A stretch of 64,000 nucleotides of DNA from Algoriphagus iocasae (GTDB taxonomy: Bacteria; Bacteroidota; Bacteroidia; Cytophagales; Cyclobacteriaceae): positions 1,072,660-1,136,659 of the forward strand of contig NZ_JACIJO010000003.1 of NCBI RefSeq assembly GCF_014206875.1. The letters are read 5' to 3'. A model generated the notes under the pieces. It did not search any database. It had not been told where the DNA came from and saw only the letters and a list, made by a program, of their open reading frames with translations. A program made the translations under genes and the position numbers. Of this stretch, positions 54,234 through 63,881 are shown one piece after another; position 1 is the first letter of the stretch; every line of letters starts with the position of its first letter.

Positions 54234-54662
54234 ATGTCCTACAATAAAGTCTATATCCATTTTGTATGGAGTACAAAAAACCGCTTTCCTTTTTTAGATT
54301 CTAAAGATTTAAGATTAAAAGTATGGGACCATATTAAAGAAAACTCTAAATCTAAAGGGATCTTTGTGGACCATGTTAGTGGTTTTTCGGACCATTGCCA
54401 TTGCTTAGTTTCACTTGGGGTAAATCAGACAATTCAAAAAGTTATACAGCTGATCAAAGGTGAATCTTCATTCTGGATCAATAAAAATCAATTGACTTCA
54501 GAGAAATTTGAATGGCAGGACGAATATTTTTCAGTTTCGGTATCAGAATCGATTCTTCAGAATGTTAGAACATATATTAAAAATCAGGAAAAGCATCACA
54601 TGAAGAAGTCATTTCAAGAGGAATATGAAGAATTTATAGCTAAATATAAATTTGGGGTTTAG
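54234..54662 (+). CDS. REP-associated tyrosine transposase (RAYT), IS200/Y1 family
   Basis: 142 residues, a single HUH domain with no accessory protein. The HUH motif is His54-Cys-His56 (SDHCHCLVSL) and the catalytic Tyr is Tyr114 (VRTYIKNQEKHH). YIHFVWSTKNRFPF at the N-terminus is typical of Bacteroidota RAYT/IS200-like proteins. The gene lies next to a hairpin array, without obvious IS ends of its own, which is the RAYT arrangement rather than a free IS200. It should nick and join single-stranded DNA at hairpin-linked sites. Sequence intact, so it may be active. Confidence 0.93.
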   Translation: MSYNKVYIHFVWSTKNRFPFLDSKDLRLKVWDHIKENSKSKGIFVDHVSGFSDHCHCLVSLGVNQTIQKVIQLIKGESSFWINKNQLTSEKFEWQDEYFSVSVSESILQNVRTYIKNQEKHHMKKSFQEEYEEFIAKYKFGV

Positions 54663-55999: not shown

Positions 56000-56134
56000 A
56001 ATATAGTATTTAAGAATTGAGGTTTCTATTATTTTTCTTAAAAAAACATGATGCAGAATCCTCAATTCCACTATTATAAATGGAATCCAATAGTTTCCTT
56101 TCTCCTAAAATGGAAATTTGTCATCAATCCATTT

Positions 56135-57292
56135 CTATTTCGTGATTCTCCTAGGAATAGCCGCTGGAAGCCTACTCAGCATTTCATTGTTCAGCAACTG
56201 AGTGACTTGAGAGAATGAACTGATATTGATGGTATTGTTATTTTGACGGCCTACCAATACAACCTCATCACCAACCTGCACATCTGGGATATTTGAGACA
56301 TCCACCATAAAAAGATTCATATTGATCAGGCCGACAATTTGTACCTTTTTTCCTTTTATCAGCACATGACCAGAATTGGATTGGGCTCGGGGATAGCCAT
56401 TACTATAACCAAGGGGCATCACCGCCACTTTCATATCCTGTGAAGCCTGATAGGAGGTACCATAGCCTATAAACTCACCGGCTTCCACATCCCTCACGTC
56501 CATTACATCCGTTTTCCAGGTAAAAATCCTCTTCAGAGCACTATCCGATTGCTTCCCTGTTTTTTGTAAATGTGCATAGTAAATATCAGGACTAGGCCAA
56601 AAACCATATTGCGCCACACCAATTCTCACCATATCATACACAGTGTCTTTATAGGCCAAAGCAGCTGCGGAACATGCAATATGACGGATTTCCGGCTCGA
56701 TATTCTTTTGCTTGCATTGCTTCAGGAAGTTTTTGTAGCGCTCATGCTGCTTATCAATTTTAAATTGATTCGAAAAGTTCTCCGCTCCGCCAAAATGAGT
56801 ACATAGACCTTTAAAGGCTATTTCTTTTGAATGCTTCTTAAGAAAACTTAGCGTAGCAGGAAATTCACTTTTGGTCATTCCAGTTCTATTTGCTCCGGTT
56901 TCCACTTCAATGTGCACTTTGGCTTGCTTTCCTAGCCTCTGAGCGGACTCCAATACTAAGGGTAGTCTTTCGTAATTGAAGACATAAAACTCAATTCCAT
57001 TTTCTACAGCCCAGTCAATATCCTCATCATAAAGAATACCCATGATCATAGCATCACTGCTCTCAGATTTTGCTTCTAAAACTTCCTCTGCCTCAAATGC
57101 CGATGCAGTGGCAAAATGACTTACTCCGGCTTTTTCAGCCATCTTCACAAATTCACGAATTCCATGGCCATAGGCATTTGCCTTGACCACGGAAGATATT
57201 TTTACGCCTTCACCGACCTTCTTTTTGATGAAGTTGATATTATTTGTCAATGAGGATTGACTGAGTTCTATTCTTGATGAATGTCTTACCAT
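56135..57292 (-). CDS. alr: Alanine racemase-like PLP enzyme (divergent)
   Basis: 385 residues from the ATG at 57292; earlier in-frame codons are poor starts. Fold type III: Lys37 binds PLP (VVKANAYGHG), Tyr277 is the second base (FIGYGTSY) and Arg136 is in TGANRTG. The usual CMDQ segment reads INMNLFMVDV, so the Asp after Met is Asn. This is unusual for housekeeping alanine racemases, though a broader-specificity enzyme cannot be excluded. It overlaps the upstream 662-residue gene by 7 bases and closes the ATP-grasp operon. D-amino-acid supply for a peptide made by that operon is a plausible role. Confidence 0.88.
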   Translation of the reverse strand: MVRHSSRIELSQSSLTNNINFIKKKVGEGVKISSVVKANAYGHGIREFVKMAEKAGVSHFATASAFEAEEVLEAKSESSDAMIMGILYDEDIDWAVENGIEFYVFNYERLPLVLESAQRLGKQAKVHIEVETGANRTGMTKSEFPATLSFLKKHSKEIAFKGLCTHFGGAENFSNQFKIDKQHERYKNFLKQCKQKNIEPEIRHIACSAAALAYKDTVYDMVRIGVAQYGFWPSPDIYYAHLQKTGKQSDSALKRIFTWKTDVMDVRDVEAGEFIGYGTSYQASQDMKVAVMPLGYSNGYPRAQSNSGHVLIKGKKVQIVGLINMNLFMVDVSNIPDVQVGDEVVLVGRQNNNTINISSFSQVTQLLNNEMLSRLPAAIPRRITK

Positions 57293-59274
57293 AATTTCGT
57301 TTGTTGATTCCAGGTATAGGATTTCCCCCAACTTTCTCTTCCAAGTTTTTCCACCCGCTCCAGTTCTTCTGTTGGGACCTGATTTAATCTGTCTTTTACA
57401 TCCAATGTGCTGTAATGGAAGGCATAAACCCTTGCGGCAAACTGATAGAATGGAAGGGAAGATTCTCCTTTCTTTTCTCCTTTACCATGAACAGAAGGGA
57501 TGATATTCTGTCCCCAGTCCTGTCTGCCCTCATTGTTGGGATTGAGGAAGTAGGCGCGGATTTCTCCCTTGGGACTTTTCTCCACTCGTAGGAGGGAAAC
57601 GGCATGAAAACCAATCATATCCCCTTTGTTACTGGTAATGAAAATACCCACAGGGTTGGGGTAAACCATCTGCTTATTATTGTTGTAATCCGGGTGAAAA
57701 GCAGCATAAAATATCCGCACATATCCTGGGAAGTCCATGATGGAATTACTCATGTAATCATAACAGGAGGCAAAACCCACTTGGATCCATTGTCCATACA
57801 TGGCCGGATTAACCCATTTATGTGGATCTTCCAATCTTCCTGCGGAAAGCCGCATCATCTCATTGTAGATTTTGTCCAGATGTGGAACCAATACAATGGA
57901 CACCACATCCAGATTATAATCCAACTGATCCAGCAGGCCTTTGATCAGATTGTTGGAAACCAGATTCTGGTTTTCGAAGCGCATGATCAGATTGTTTTGG
58001 GTGGCTACGGTGATAATCATATCGATCAGCTTGGCCGGGGAATGCTGACTCCACATGCTAATGCCCCGGGCAGATTGACAGGTAGGGTTATTCCCTTGAC
58101 CCACACCCAAAGGCTGTCCCAAAACCTTGATCGTTCCTCCAATCAGATACTGTAATGCCGTGACCTCTTCATCCCGATTGACCAGAGATTTCAAAATCCT
58201 CTTTTCCACCTGGGGATTGATCTTTATCCTGCGAAGGTTTTCTAACCCCACCCGAACAGCCCTTCGGGAAAATAGGTTTTTGCGGAGCATTCGGGCTAGG
58301 CCATAAATACACTGGCAGTTATCCCAACTCACTGTTTCTAAAATCAGGGAAGAAATCATCTCATGGTATTTGTCCCATTCGGCTGTTCCCCGATCATTTA
58401 AATCCAGGCAAATCGGAACCAAATCACCATGGGCTTTCACAAGATGCTTTAGAAAAACAGCTTGATACCCACTTACCAAACCTGTGGCATTCATGCAGCT
58501 TCCCATTTCCTCTGCTTCTTTTGCCAAAGTTTCCTCATCCGCATTTTCCAGAAAAGTCTGGTAGGAATCCTTTCCTTGATGAGCTTTTGAGCCTTCGGAA
58601 GGAGCATACAAGGCATCGATATAAATCCGCATTTCCTGATCCAGCTTGAGATCCCCGGAAGTATCAAATCTCCTGTTGACCAAACTGATAAGTTCCCGGG
58701 CTTTTGAGGTGCGGATGGGGCGCTGTTCACAAATCAGGCGAATTTCTTCCACTAGCTTTTCATAAACTCCGCGCAAATCCATTTCGGACATGATAAAGCC
58801 AAAGAGATTGAATGCCTTCTTTAATTCCCGTTCGGGCATTTTCACACGCGTCTCCTCAGTAGGTTCACGTAGCGCAAACTCAAGATTATGCACGATTACC
58901 TCCTCCAAGAAACGCTGTGCATCCTCCGCAGAGACGGTTTGATGTACATCCTCTCCTTTGGCATAGCGAAGCATTCGTAGCTCCGATAATGCCTCAAAAC
59001 TGGAGGATGGATGCCCATATTTAAGCGTTCCCTTGACTAAATAGGGAACAAGCTTGTCAGGATCATTCCAGGATGTTCCTTTAAAAAACTCAGCCTGATC
59101 GAGGGTGACGCTTTTGCTATATAAAAAAGCAAGACCAGATCTGGTCAAGCTTAGTATATCGATATGACTGGCTAATTTTGTTGCCTTTTCCTTTTTGGTC
59201 AGCGGTCCCGAGTCGATAAACTCCTGGAGACTTTGTTCAAAATTAGTAAATACCTTATCGGTGGTTAATTGCAT
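57286..59274 (-). CDS. Uncharacterised protein with papain-like Gln/Cys/His/Asn constellation
   Basis: 662 residues, no signal peptide. The first 380 are mainly helical with no recognised family. From 385 the sequence reads GQPLGVGQGNNPTCQSARGISMW: Gln393 precedes Cys399 by six residues, exactly as Gln19 and Cys25 in papain. His557 (GFHAVSLLRVE) and Asn578 (YFLNPNNEG) then follow in the papain order Gln-Cys-His-Asn. It is therefore probably a papain-fold amide hydrolase or transferase. It is flanked at 15 bases by the ATP-grasp gene and overlaps the racemase by 7 bases, so the three form one tight operon. No known family was recognised by eye. Confidence 0.8.
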   Translation of the reverse strand: MQLTTDKVFTNFEQSLQEFIDSGPLTKKEKATKLASHIDILSLTRSGLAFLYSKSVTLDQAEFFKGTSWNDPDKLVPYLVKGTLKYGHPSSSFEALSELRMLRYAKGEDVHQTVSAEDAQRFLEEVIVHNLEFALREPTEETRVKMPERELKKAFNLFGFIMSEMDLRGVYEKLVEEIRLICEQRPIRTSKARELISLVNRRFDTSGDLKLDQEMRIYIDALYAPSEGSKAHQGKDSYQTFLENADEETLAKEAEEMGSCMNATGLVSGYQAVFLKHLVKAHGDLVPICLDLNDRGTAEWDKYHEMISSLILETVSWDNCQCIYGLARMLRKNLFSRRAVRVGLENLRRIKINPQVEKRILKSLVNRDEEVTALQYLIGGTIKVLGQPLGVGQGNNPTCQSARGISMWSQHSPAKLIDMIITVATQNNLIMRFENQNLVSNNLIKGLLDQLDYNLDVVSIVLVPHLDKIYNEMMRLSAGRLEDPHKWVNPAMYGQWIQVGFASCYDYMSNSIMDFPGYVRIFYAAFHPDYNNNKQMVYPNPVGIFITSNKGDMIGFHAVSLLRVEKSPKGEIRAYFLNPNNEGRQDWGQNIIPSVHGKGEKKGESSLPFYQFAARVYAFHYSTLDVKDRLNQVPTEELERVEKLGRESWGKSYTWNQQTKLW

Positions 59275-59289
59275 GTATTGATTGAAAAT

Positions 59290-60513
59290 TTACACGTAAA
59301 ACTCTTCTTCCTCGTAATGCTTCAGCAACTCGGTCATGCGATCTGGATCTTCACCTTTGAAGTTGATTGTACCAAAATGATTTCCAAATCCATCCCTGTC
59401 TGCACTGAGCTTTTGTCCTTCATAAGGTGCGATAAGGGTATGCTCTACAAAGTAAGGCTCGTCATTCAAAGACTCAGGGATTTCAAGTTTTGAGAATTGG
59501 CGCTTACGAGGATAGATCATCACATTGCCATGGTAGTTTTTAGGTTTGAAGTCTTTCGCAGGAAAGATCTCATCCAATTCCTCTTCCGTAATATTCGGAT
59601 CATGGCAAATCACAAAGGCTGCCAATGCATCAAATTCATAGGATTTGGAGCAAAGTTCTAAAATATGCCCTCCTGGAATCCTGCATGCTGTTTCTCCAAA
59701 GTTAAGTTCGTCCTTATCGGTCAGGAACCATTCTGGGTGAACCATCCCGTATTCTATTCCGAAGATATCCACCATCTTTTGTACTTCCTTGTGGATCAGA
59801 TCGCGTTTGCTTTCCAGGTATTTTCCTTCGGGAATGAAATTGGAATAACCCAGCTTGACGTATTCGGTGATATTCAGGAATCTGATTTTTCCTTTATTGA
59901 TAAATGCCTCGCAGGAAAACTCACGGCCGGGTAGGTGACTTTCGGCCAAACACGGGAAATCACTGTCTTCACATTTTTCATCGATATCACTCATGGAGCG
60001 CAGCAATCTATGCCCCACAGTTCCCGCTGAAGCAAAAGGTTTGATATGTACCCAGCTATCTTCTTCTCCATCGAGCTGAAGATTTGCCTGATTGAGTCGT
60101 TTCATAAAGGCTTTGACACCCTCTTTATTATAAACTTCCTCAAAGAGTCCTACTCGGAGACCACCAATCAGCGCTTTTCGCTTCATCATGGCTTTGTTTC
60201 GGAATAAGAAAGCCCTGTTGAGCACTCGTGGATCGCCTCGGTAAATTGAGTTTAAGGCACCAGCCCATTCGACAGTTTCCTCGTAAAGCGGCACAGCCAC
60301 ATCCACATCAAAAGCCTTCAACTTTTCATATAAGTCGATGGAATTGGAAGTATCAGACCATTCGTCTAAAGGGTAGGAAACAAAAGGGATATTATTTTCA
60401 GCAGCATAAGTTTCAAAATCCGAAAAGGAAACTACTACAAAAGGACGTCCGGTCTTCTGCATGCTTTCGATGACAGGAAGACTCCAGCCTATTAATGCAA
60501 AACATTTTGCCAT
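59290..60513 (-). CDS. ATP-grasp ligase
   Basis: 407 residues. N-terminal Rossmann-like pre-ATP-grasp domain (KCFALIGWSLPVIESMQKTGRPFVVVS) and the ATP-grasp domain from about 120, with the ATP-binding Lys in WVHIKPFASAGTVGHRLL, a CLAESHLPGREFSCEAFI loop, and the Mg-binding GETACRIPGG (about 275). The last 100 residues form a C-terminal domain. It resembles the PurK/carnosine-synthase-like carboxylate-amine ligases that join amino acids. It is the first gene before the papain-like protein and the racemase. Substrate unknown. Confidence 0.92.
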   Translation of the reverse strand: MAKCFALIGWSLPVIESMQKTGRPFVVVSFSDFETYAAENNIPFVSYPLDEWSDTSNSIDLYEKLKAFDVDVAVPLYEETVEWAGALNSIYRGDPRVLNRAFLFRNKAMMKRKALIGGLRVGLFEEVYNKEGVKAFMKRLNQANLQLDGEEDSWVHIKPFASAGTVGHRLLRSMSDIDEKCEDSDFPCLAESHLPGREFSCEAFINKGKIRFLNITEYVKLGYSNFIPEGKYLESKRDLIHKEVQKMVDIFGIEYGMVHPEWFLTDKDELNFGETACRIPGGHILELCSKSYEFDALAAFVICHDPNITEEELDEIFPAKDFKPKNYHGNVMIYPRKRQFSKLEIPESLNDEPYFVEHTLIAPYEGQKLSADRDGFGNHFGTINFKGEDPDRMTELLKHYEEEEFYV

Positions 60514-60763
60514 GGTATTTTAAGGTTTAGGGTTAAAAATTGATTGAAAATCAGATGCTCTGGTCCACACAGGATGTGTGAGGAGAAAGGACAGAATTGT
60601 CAAAAAGACCAGAGTACCTTATTATACAAGGGCTGTACACCGAAGATCGTTCCATCTTTTTTCAATCCCCTTGCTGAGTACAGCAGGTTCTTAGAATAGT
60701 GGAATTAAAGGAGTGGCCAATCACTAAATGCGGTCAATGATTTATTAAAAAGCTTTTTTATTC

Positions 60764-60930: not shown

Positions 60931-62277
60931 TTAATGTTTTTCTTGGCTTATTAAGAAATCAAGAGCTTTTTCTAATACAGGATCTCTATCTTCTAAATAG
61001 TCATTAAGGGTTTTTTGAACAAAAATATCAGGTTGGATTCCAACTCCCACAAACTCTCTTCCATCTGGATATGTGTCTTTTTTTGTACAAACCCTAGCAA
61101 GGCCTCCTTGGGGTAAATTAAAACTTAGCGGCTTACCGGTACTCCCATAGCTGGGTTCACCAATTTTGGTCATATGCTTTTGCTTATCAGCGTAAATCAG
61201 AAAATCTTCCGCAGCAGAAGCAGTCCCATGGCCGATTAAAATTGCTGTAGGAACTATAATTCTTTTATTCTTGAGTAGCCTTTTATCTCCTGGTCCCAAT
61301 GTGTCTGGAGAATATGGCAGATCATAAAAATAGGTATCATTACCTCTTGCTTTAAAAGTCGCTACATGCTGTCTGGTCTGAGATTTAGAACCAAAAAAAA
61401 CAGTGTCTTCCGTTAGGTAATGTAAGATGACCTTTCCAATAATGGTATTTCCTCCTCCGTTATTTCGTAAATCTAAGATCAGGGATTCTGCTTGCTGTAA
61501 TTCTTTGTTTTTTTTACGAAACATCTCAGCAATTTCCCAATCCGAAAAGGAGTTCAGAGAGATATAGGCAGTGTTGTTGGGATACCACTTAAACTCAAAA
61601 AGTTCTTTCTTTTCTATGACGGGAAACATTTCCCTATCTTCGGATTTTGCTATCGTGATATTCAATGTTTTTTCATCACCATTGGGCTGCAATAATTTTA
61701 AATCATAGGTGGTGCCCAGATAACCTTCAAGCAACTTTTTTATGCCCCAGTCTTCTAAAGTGTAAGATGTGGAAGCGGAAATATATGGGAGAACATTTTC
61801 GTTTAAGTAATCTCTAGTGGGAATACCGTTTACTTCAATAATCTCGGATCCAATTGGAATTTCTTCTTTTTTACTTTCATTGATATGAGTTATTATGGCC
61901 TTCCCACCAATATTATTAATAATGAAGCGGTATTTCCCATAGTTGTTATTAAGTACTTTTTCCTGAATGTATTTTGGAAAGTAAACATTGGTATGTCCAT
62001 CTTTCAGGGTTGCACAAAACTTCTGAAGCAATCGATAATACTCGAAATCATTGGAAGTTTCCTGAACCTTGGAGGTAAGTTCCTTGAATAGCTCATCCCA
62101 CTTAAGTTGATCCACTTTGTAGAGGTAGACAGAATTATAGTTTACTTCCTGCCAAAATTTAGAGAGGCCATAGATTTTATCTTCCTGGGTCAAATTATTC
62201 GGTATCTGGCCAAACGCTAAGCAGGAGGAAAAAAAGAAGCTAAAAAGACAAAGGAGTTTAAAGTTTTTGAATGTCAT
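60931..62277 (-). CDS. S41-family peptidase (C-terminal processing peptidase-like), secreted
   Basis: 448 residues from the ATG at 62277, which gives a proper Sec signal (LLCLFSFFFSSCLAFG); an ATG 19 codons upstream adds only hydrophilic residues. An N-terminal helical region and a PDZ-like segment (about 120-170; GSEIIEVNGIPTRDY) are followed by the tail-specific protease core: SLILDLRNNGGGNTIIGKVI, then GHGTASAAEDFLIYADK with the nucleophile Ser and GEPSYGSTGKPLSFNLPQGG. It probably degrades peptides in the periplasm. Stand-alone. Confidence 0.92.
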   Translation of the reverse strand: MTFKNFKLLCLFSFFFSSCLAFGQIPNNLTQEDKIYGLSKFWQEVNYNSVYLYKVDQLKWDELFKELTSKVQETSNDFEYYRLLQKFCATLKDGHTNVYFPKYIQEKVLNNNYGKYRFIINNIGGKAIITHINESKKEEIPIGSEIIEVNGIPTRDYLNENVLPYISASTSYTLEDWGIKKLLEGYLGTTYDLKLLQPNGDEKTLNITIAKSEDREMFPVIEKKELFEFKWYPNNTAYISLNSFSDWEIAEMFRKKNKELQQAESLILDLRNNGGGNTIIGKVILHYLTEDTVFFGSKSQTRQHVATFKARGNDTYFYDLPYSPDTLGPGDKRLLKNKRIIVPTAILIGHGTASAAEDFLIYADKQKHMTKIGEPSYGSTGKPLSFNLPQGGLARVCTKKDTYPDGREFVGVGIQPDIFVQKTLNDYLEDRDPVLEKALDFLISQEKH

Positions 62278-62526
62278 AATTTTTAAACTAAAAGAACTTG
62301 CAATAAATGCATTTCTATGGAAAATAATTGGCAAGTTGGCTGGAAATAATACTTTGAAACTCCACTTTTGGCGCTGGATCTAATTTTAATCAATGAAGTG
62401 ATTTTTCTAAAGTTCAGCTAAGAAGACATGGAACTTGAGATGACTTTAATGCCATTAGCGGAAATTATCAAAATAGAATGAGGATCCAGAATGTAAAATA
62501 TTGAGATCAGAAATAGGATAAAAAAT

Positions 62527-62561: not shown

Positions 62562-63488
62562 TTAGTTGATTTCTATAGGTATGGACCTCATTGAAGCATT
62601 TCCAGCCTCATCTTCAGCCCATATAATCATGACAAAATTAGATTTTCCCTCTGGAAAATCCATTGGATCAATTTCCAATAACTCATTAAAAGTAAGCTCG
62701 GATACTGAAGGAAGTTCGCTTCCCGATTTATCCAATCTTAAAGACTGACCCCACATCCTTTCATCGTAGACTATTTGATCTGTTTCTCCTTTATAGTCAC
62801 CCAAGACATCTTGATCAGCCAGCTTAATCCAAACAAACTTCAAGGGAGTTGACAGTTCGTCATCTGTCTTCATGATTCCACCTTCTAGTGAAAGTGCCTC
62901 ATTGGTTTCTAAAGTTATAACGTCAGGGAGTCCATGAGGTCTATGAATTAAAGGAGCATAAGTTCTTTCAACAAAGACAATGGTTTGATAATTAGATCCA
63001 AATTCATGATTGGTTATGTTACCATGAATGTCTTGCGCATCGATGCTCAACTCATAGGGGCCTGCGAGAATTGGAAGGGAAGCAACAGAATAGGTTCCTT
63101 TCCATTCTATGGTAAAAGGGTCAAAGTTTATTTCATCTTTTCCAGGTTGGAAGTTGTATTTTGGACTATCATAATCTTTATTGATAATCTCAGTATGGTT
63201 TAATAACTCAAATTTATTGGCGAAATCACCTTCTGCATTATTGGGCAAATCTCCTTTAACTCCCAGAATTATTTCTGAGATTCCTTCAGGGTCACTTATA
63301 TTTAAATAATACCGAAAAGATGACCAATCCCATGGAATAACTTGGCCAGGGTAAGGTTCAATTTCTGAAGAATATTCTAATTTAGAAATTGTCGGAATGG
63401 TATTGTCAATAGGCTGTGGTGGGTCTTCACTGCAGGATGCAAAACCTATAGAAGCAATTAATAGGGTAAAAAGAGAATGTTTATTCAT
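62562..63488 (-). CDS. Hypothetical lipoprotein, DUF4625-like beta domains
   Basis: 308 residues from the ATG at 63488, which starts a normal signal (lipobox FASCSED); an earlier in-frame ATG 11 codons upstream is less likely. The mature protein repeats a pattern of the DUF4625 type: NTIPTISKLEYSSEI..., ISDPEGISEIILGVKG, and AGPYELSIDAQDIHGNITNHEF. The later DDELSTPLKFVWIKLAD begins a second, less similar beta domain. Such lipoproteins occur in Bacteroidota surfaces; no activity is known. Confidence 0.72.
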   Translation of the reverse strand: MNKHSLFTLLIASIGFASCSEDPPQPIDNTIPTISKLEYSSEIEPYPGQVIPWDWSSFRYYLNISDPEGISEIILGVKGDLPNNAEGDFANKFELLNHTEIINKDYDSPKYNFQPGKDEINFDPFTIEWKGTYSVASLPILAGPYELSIDAQDIHGNITNHEFGSNYQTIVFVERTYAPLIHRPHGLPDVITLETNEALSLEGGIMKTDDELSTPLKFVWIKLADQDVLGDYKGETDQIVYDERMWGQSLRLDKSGSELPSVSELTFNELLEIDPMDFPEGKSNFVMIIWAEDEAGNASMRSIPIEIN

Positions 63489-63881
63489 TTGATTGAAAGA
63501 AAAAGAGTAGAACTTCACCATAATTAAATAATAAGTTCGTATTTAAAAATAAAAAGTTCGGGTTTCTAGTTATTATTTTTTAAAGGTTGATAACCTTTCT
63601 TTCAATTAACTCCTTCGATTTAAATCTCTTCATAGAAGTTTCTCTTGCAGTTTTTAAAATACGGATAACTCGCTTCATAAATAGTGAGTTCTAACAATCT
63701 CATGTTTTAATTCTTTTGATTTCATTTATTTTTTTAGTCGTCACATGTGAATAAATCTCAGAAAAAGACGTTCTGAAACTTAAAAATTCCTAAATAAATT
63801 AAAAACGTAATTGATGTTTGGGACAACCCACTATATTCAAATTATTATTTCGAAAATATTTTTAGTTTAAAAAAATCAGCC
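63489..63881. other. Gene-free region, nothing recognised
   Basis: 393 AT-rich bases between two divergent gene starts. It must contain at least one promoter but no convincing TTTG / TAnnTTTG pair, palindrome or small gene was seen. Confidence 0.6.

Follow-up and report, generated by a model that had tools for sequence, protein, structure and literature searches.

A compact operon of Algoriphagus iocasae, located on the minus strand of contig NZ_JACIJO010000003.1 within the 64,000-nucleotide stretch of DNA analysed here (the window, to which all coordinates refer), has as its core a pair of genes, one for an ATP-grasp ligase and the other, here called the middle gene, for a protein of a family unnamed in the libraries searched, and the racemase gene that completes it is an addition of Bacteroidota and Balneolota. 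The ligase gene comes first (59290..60513, 407 amino acids, of the L-amino-acid-ligase type by profile and fold comparison), and is followed, after a 15-base gap between its stop and the next start (59275..59289), by the middle gene (57286..59274, 662 amino acids, predicted papain-like) and then by a gene for a pyridoxal phosphate (PLP)-dependent racemase of the alanine-racemase fold (56135..57292, 385 amino acids counted from an ATG, assigned by Pfam, NCBIfam and a tree). The racemase start overlaps the middle-gene stop by seven bases, ATGGTAA (57286..57292), which suggests translational coupling of the two genes, and locus L005 has a seven-base overlap as well; an alternative racemase frame of 398 amino acids would begin at a TTG within the middle gene. 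These coordinates and spacings are as the original prediction, made from the letters of the window, had given them, and inspection by eye of the N-termini of all three proteins revealed no hydrophobic leader, in agreement with its statement that signal peptides are lacking. Taken together, the operon is tentatively read, with confidence a little short of even, as a pathway to a small peptide in the cytosol: the ligase would join amino acids, the papain-like enzyme would transfer or trim, and the racemase, or an acetyltransferase of the GNAT family in other bacteria, would tailor the product.

The gene pair was traced through a scan of named genomes, which returned at least 565 stretches matching the middle gene (the number of genes is lower, as one gene may give two stretches), and of which the best 80 loci were kept: 57 of Bacteroidota/Balneolota type (one Rhodothermaceae included), 14 of Bacillota, seven of Gemmatimonadota and two others. 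Loci were grouped by record title, save for L014, L021 (titled Bacterium) and L074, which were assigned from their sequences and the genes around them; the titles of L014 (Rickettsiales) and L074 (Chryseobacterium) conflict with sequence and neighbours, and these records are probably misbinned or mislabelled. Pairing with the ligase was counted where at least 1300 upstream bases were available, and that with the racemase where at least 1300 downstream bases were. The ligase gene lay upstream of the middle gene, on the same strand and within 1.5 kb, in all 74 named loci so counted, and because the two keep the same order in other phyla, the gene unit is not a product of chance. A racemase gene followed the middle gene in 54/54 Bacteroidota/Balneolota-type loci and in 0/21 others. 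Thus, of the self-contained three-gene pathway to a D-residue-containing peptide that had been proposed, the ligase/middle-gene pair stands as the core, and the three-gene form is not general, because the racemase is confined to the Bacteroidota/Balneolota-type loci; the possibility raised with it, that the genes might rarely be together, was not borne out by the neighbourhood survey, which found them together in other genomes.

The same pairing was seen in a draw of 200 genomes of one Bacillota order, which served alike for the middle gene, the ligase, the GNAT and ectoine synthase. Ligase orthologues (E ≤ 1e-40) were present in 30 of the 32 middle-gene genomes and in none of the other 168 (Fisher test 1.2e-33, uncorrected for kinship). 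The two middle-gene genomes that had no ligase orthologue were G665, whose decayed locus (L157, 7052-8413) retains a truncated middle gene and a small piece of the ligase gene, and G765, where the match spans just 43 residues; in G918 both genes are kept, on different contigs.

The middle protein was matched by no family at E ≤ 1 in Pfam, PF11814 included, nor in NCBIfam, by nothing in PHROGs or PADLOC, and among the PDB sequences by one chance-level match, with none for its profile. Its 62 aligned relatives gave scattered Pfam matches to 45 families, with no peptidase family among the 25 listed. It therefore belongs to a family unnamed in these libraries, unrecognised as had been stated, and the suggestion that it might turn out to be a known, unrelated family found nothing in its favour there. 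A structural model was built from the 62 aligned sequences (mean pLDDT 89.5, pTM 0.83); this alignment left out L052, L058, L067 and L068, present in the first alignment list, and other named loci that were near copies, were cut by contig ends or were unchosen, and L066, whose matched span has two stops, entered it with its stop-free reading frame alone. According to DSSP, residues 1-386 of the model are helical (58117..59274) and the remainder is mixed, residues 387-662 (57289..58116) forming the putative papain-like domain.

Gln393, Cys399, His557 (57604..57606) and Asn578 (57541..57543) were invariant in 62/62 aligned relatives, the first two within a motif that reads QGxNPTC in most rows (58078..58098, codons checked), and so were Arg403, Asp483, His485, Asn489, Arg573, Asn580 and Glu600. 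The catalytic residues of papain come in the order Gln, Cys, His, Asn, and those of the middle protein follow it. In the modelled C-terminal layout, the Gln stands six residues ahead of the Cys, at which a helix begins, His557 lies within a strand and Asn578 comes after the next strand. The papain-type constellation noted in the original prediction was thus found invariant, and structure prediction, which it had proposed as a check, returned a papain-like layout with no Foldseek match to the PDB at E ≤ 0.001. The weak matches included m-calpain (3df0, probability 0.93, E 0.13) and staphopains (1cv8, probability 0.54; 8oig, 0.41), all calpain and staphopain rows lying at E 0.13-0.77, and the remaining rows listed were low-probability matches, for the most part to long helical proteins; the viral models likewise gave no match at E ≤ 0.001. 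A papain-like nature of the middle protein is well argued by residue order and modelled layout, and weakly by the fold search. In some Bacillota a second, shorter middle-type gene lies 3′ of the first (L073, L074, L088, L123-L126, L128, L129 and L135), and the three such copies aligned retain the Gln, Cys, His and Asn.

The ligase had a weak, below-cut-off match to the Pfam family ATP-grasp_4 and a similar picture in NCBIfam, and no match in PADLOC or PHROGs. Its profile aligned with RizA (4wd3) at E 1.8e-10, the alignment taking in an E..E-x-A-x-R stretch in which E261, E274, A276 and R278 were invariant in 52 aligned rows; E261, E274 and R278 we take to be the acidic metal/ATP residues and the Arg of the motif. 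With the ligase model (pLDDT 91.3), Foldseek ranks 1, 2 and 4-7 were RizA, BL00235 and YwfE/BacD, the best being RizA at E 4.9e-24, and rank 3 was a phosphoribosylglycinamide synthetase entry. The protein is accordingly predicted by its model to be of the L-amino-acid-ligase type, consistent with the ATP-grasp amino-acid ligase first proposed. It would share the ATP-grasp fold with RizA, BL00235 and BacD/YwfE, and shares with RizA and BL00235 the Glu...Glu-x-Ala/Gly-x-Arg stretch of the profile alignments, but it is only 13-20% identical to these enzymes, and its operon also encodes a papain-like protein. Enzymes resembling it are described in a passage of PMC6920838 as making dipeptides from free amino acids.

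Two other accounts of the pair bear on these data. In the first, the papain-like enzyme would hydrolyse an imported or by-product peptide or amide, and the ligase and racemase would recycle or re-make it; such scavenging or clearance would suit the Gln-Cys-His-Asn layout, which is the ordinary hydrolase constellation, but conservation is highest in the ATP-spending ligase (98% identical to its L002 counterpart, versus 89% for the middle protein), which fits synthesis better, and inspection of loci by eye showed no transporter gene recurring next to the pair; we hold this account to be unlikely. In the second, the pair would write and erase a protein tag, the ATP-grasp enzyme attaching an amino acid at the terminus or a side chain of a protein, the papain-like enzyme removing it and the helical half binding the target, by analogy with tubulin tyrosine ligase and vasohibin, which add and remove an amino acid on a protein. 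Although the tight pairing of the ligase with a papain-like enzyme and the large helical N-terminal region would agree with this analogy, the ligases nearest in sequence and fold use free amino acids, no candidate target protein was noticed next to the two genes at the loci looked at and a racemase would not be expected, and such a role appears improbable.

The racemase matched both Ala_racemase domains of Pfam (9.6e-48 and 2.2e-38), gave one chance-level match in PADLOC (E 0.013) and nothing useful in PHROGs. Comparison of 59 operon copies (that of the window and 58 others) with 17 comparators showed the equivalents of Lys39, Arg136, His166, Arg219 and Tyr265 kept in 59/59 operon copies. In a tree of 75 sequences, 58 operon copies formed one side of a branch with support 100/95, the program giving a long-branch warning and the deeper forks being unsure; their sister group comprised six sequences of 41-44% identity (L139, L141, L143, L145, L147 and L154), another gene of the window's genome included. 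By eye, the sister gene on a Persicobacter plasmid lies amid symporter-, acetyltransferase- and M20-type amidohydrolase-like frames and a second PLP-barrel frame. At the place of Tyr354, the operon copies had no Tyr (0/59; Asn in 55, Gln in three, Ala in one), the residue in the window being Asn369 (56186..56188), whereas 16/17 comparators kept the Tyr, the sister group included. In alanine racemase, Tyr354 gates the entryway and helps control substrate choice, as stated in a section of PMC3245724. The loss of this gate suggests that the enzyme accepts further substrates in addition to alanine, or a different one altogether. The divergent alanine racemase of the original prediction was thus recovered as a clade of its own with its catalytic residues intact; D-Ala in particular is doubtful because the Tyr354 gate is gone, although the alr cut-off is passed.

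Two further positions were less telling. The position of Glu129 (56906..56908), where alanine racemase has a carbamylated Lys129, was Glu in 59/59 operon copies, but seven of the comparators had Lys, seven Glu and one each Asp, His and Asn, and it separates the two sets poorly. Asn326, at what we take by alignment to be Asp313 in alanine-racemase numbering, was Asn in 59/59 operon copies and in 7/17 comparators, and is not unique. Negative charge near position 129 matters in alanine racemase, where it comes from the carbamylated Lys129 or from an Asn with chloride, according to a passage of PMC3146814; Glu129 could supply a permanent one.

These results bear on whether the racemase is an unrelated passenger that supplies D-Ala for the cell wall alone. 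Its best NCBIfam match is alr (TIGR00492, 287.4 bits versus a cut-off of 168), which favours a passenger and tells against a dedicated enzyme; however, the genome of the window encodes a further alanine-racemase domain, in a frame of 848 residues that is probably a MurF-Alr fusion judging from length and domain match, and the operon copies form their own clade and have lost Tyr354, that of the window also overlapping the middle gene. We give the passenger explanation very little credence, and a plain housekeeping alanine racemase is unlikely by residues and tree, though the alr cut-off is exceeded.

In Bacillota, another gene often accompanies the pair. A divergently transcribed GNAT gene stood ahead of the ligase in 10 of the 13 Bacillota named loci with enough upstream DNA, belonging to Planococcus relatives, Domibacillus, Bacillus and Paenibacillus. 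Related GNATs are widespread in the order (104/200 genomes at E ≤ 1e-30), and the linked type, defined by a cut of 191.7 bits that was picked after the list had been inspected, was found in 21/32 genomes with the middle gene versus 1/168 without it. A GNAT search of 25 genomes matched five, all Bacillota, with the window's genome unmatched.

The reactions, substrates, product and physiological role of the operon we infer throughout; its gene structure, conservation and co-occurrence, the modelled ligase fold, the papain-like layout and the racemase residue changes come from this analysis itself. In the small-peptide pathway, the ATP-grasp enzyme would convert one amino acid, or a short peptide, into an acyl phosphate and join it to an amine. 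The ligase product would then yield an acyl-enzyme at Cys399 of the papain-like protein, which would pass the acyl group to another amine (transpeptidation) or trim the product. A D-amino acid, in addition to D-Ala or in its stead, would come in Bacteroidota and Balneolota from a dedicated, wider-gated racemase, and in many Bacillota a GNAT enzyme would acetylate in place of the racemase step. Transfer is favoured over hydrolysis because an ATP-spending synthetic gene is the constant partner and papain-fold transferases are known. A more specific form seems rather doubtful, though worth naming: in Bacteroidota, Balneolota, Gemmatimonadota and Bacillota, and in one or more Halomonas, a papain-fold transpeptidase whose helical half binds the substrate would work on the ATP-grasp product much as phytochelatin synthase does on glutathione, and the peptide would be protected by a D-residue (Bacteroidota/Balneolota) or an N-acetyl cap (Bacillota).

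Several observations, in addition to the fold search and the alr match, weigh against the small-peptide pathway. The tailoring partner is not universal, since the racemase is absent from 21/75 named loci and the linked-type GNAT from 11/32 middle-gene genomes. No ligase adjoins the middle gene at L127 and L133, the genomes of which have one elsewhere, and G817 has an extra, unlinked ligase with no adjoining middle gene. The best-scoring 80 named loci over-represent near relatives, and the co-occurrence counts follow kinship. Transfer and hydrolysis, moreover, are not separable by sequence.

Operons of this kind have precedents. Predicted peptide-synthesis operons with ATP-grasp ligases and papain-like or acyltransferase enzymes are already described (PMC2922099, in the part concerned), so the combination of ATP-grasp and papain-like genes is known, and what appears new is the middle family and its arrangement, no description of which was recognised in searches of the open-licence literature. 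Phytochelatin synthase (C83) and BtrH (PF14399), discussed alongside papain and calpain in a section of PMC10318531, are papain-fold Cys enzymes that transfer acyl groups, as is proposed for the middle protein. The middle protein differs from both in having no Pfam match, an extra all-helical half and other partner genes. DUF3335 (PF11814) papain-like proteins are often fused to GNAT domains and may act as peptide ligases, as a passage of PMC10318531 has it, and a papain-like/GNAT combination also occurs in the Bacillota operons. Here, by contrast, the GNAT is a separate gene, is confined to Bacillota among the genomes searched, and PF11814 is unmatched. For GNAT-fused papain-like proteins, PMC10318531 refers to Iyer et al. 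2009 on amidoligases. Calpain (C2) and the staphopains (C47) are the best papain-like structural neighbours of the middle model, at E values too weak to argue that it belongs to either family. Alanine racemase and the serine racemase VanT have the fold and catalytic residues in common with the operon racemase, but the latter differs by Glu129, Asn326, Asn369 and its own clade. The middle family is large and cross-phylum, yet unnamed in the libraries searched, and its strict pairing with the ligase makes a defined two-protein biochemical question; if the middle protein forms peptide bonds, it would be an additional papain-fold route to ligation and its product probably an unknown metabolite.

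The best 80 named loci fall in Bacteroidota, Balneolota, Rhodothermota, Gemmatimonadota and Bacillota, plus an Oligoflexia metagenome-assembled genome. With the window's own genome counted, the middle gene was found in 5/58 relatives, in 3/194 genomes of the order and in 4/395 of the phylum; around a Planomicrobium genome, itself counted, it was found in 32/200 genomes of the order (the Bacillota draw described above) and 1/199 of the phylum. Its distribution is patchy, as these low counts across genome sets indicate. Many host names in the scan of named genomes (names only) point to marine, saline or soda-lake sources, and would be in line with a pathway to an osmolyte, the product being a stable small peptide built up under salt. 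However, host names alone are no proof of a link with salinity, and ectoine synthase was present in 1/32 genomes with the middle gene and 9/168 without it, that is, with no association in the 200 genomes; an osmolyte role is quite improbable, and a link with ectoine was rejected. A plasmid-borne system was likewise set aside, as a single plasmid record, a 1.8-Mb Halomonas replicon, carried the middle gene. A defence or phage role was rejected as well: the ligase and middle protein have no PADLOC or PHROGs match, and the middle protein was not found in the viral contigs and phage records searched.

When 16 kb of the window was compared with four named Algoriphagus loci, DNA similarity of 77-81% was confined to 56134-60711. 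The shared cassette consists of the three genes with some 190 bases of upstream DNA, the similarity ending at 60698-60711, and it appears to have moved between genomic locations in the genus. The GC content of the operon (43.3% versus 37.5% for the rest of the window) says little about transfer, because operon GC exceeded that of the flanks in 7/8 other loci measured. The upstream stretch (60514..60711), which accompanies the operon as a putative leader or promoter region, is conserved across the Algoriphagus loci and has two short inverted repeats. It possibly contains operator sites or a leader RNA; a leader RNA of a known family was rejected, Rfam having given no match, and the RNAalifold consensus of seven related sequences showed little covariation (-0.44). 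Outside the cassette, an IS200-like transposase gene lies at 54234-54662, about 1.5 kb from the operon end, and on the other side a protein with a near-cut-off DUF4625 match (62562-63521) is encoded beside an S41 peptidase gene (60931-62334).

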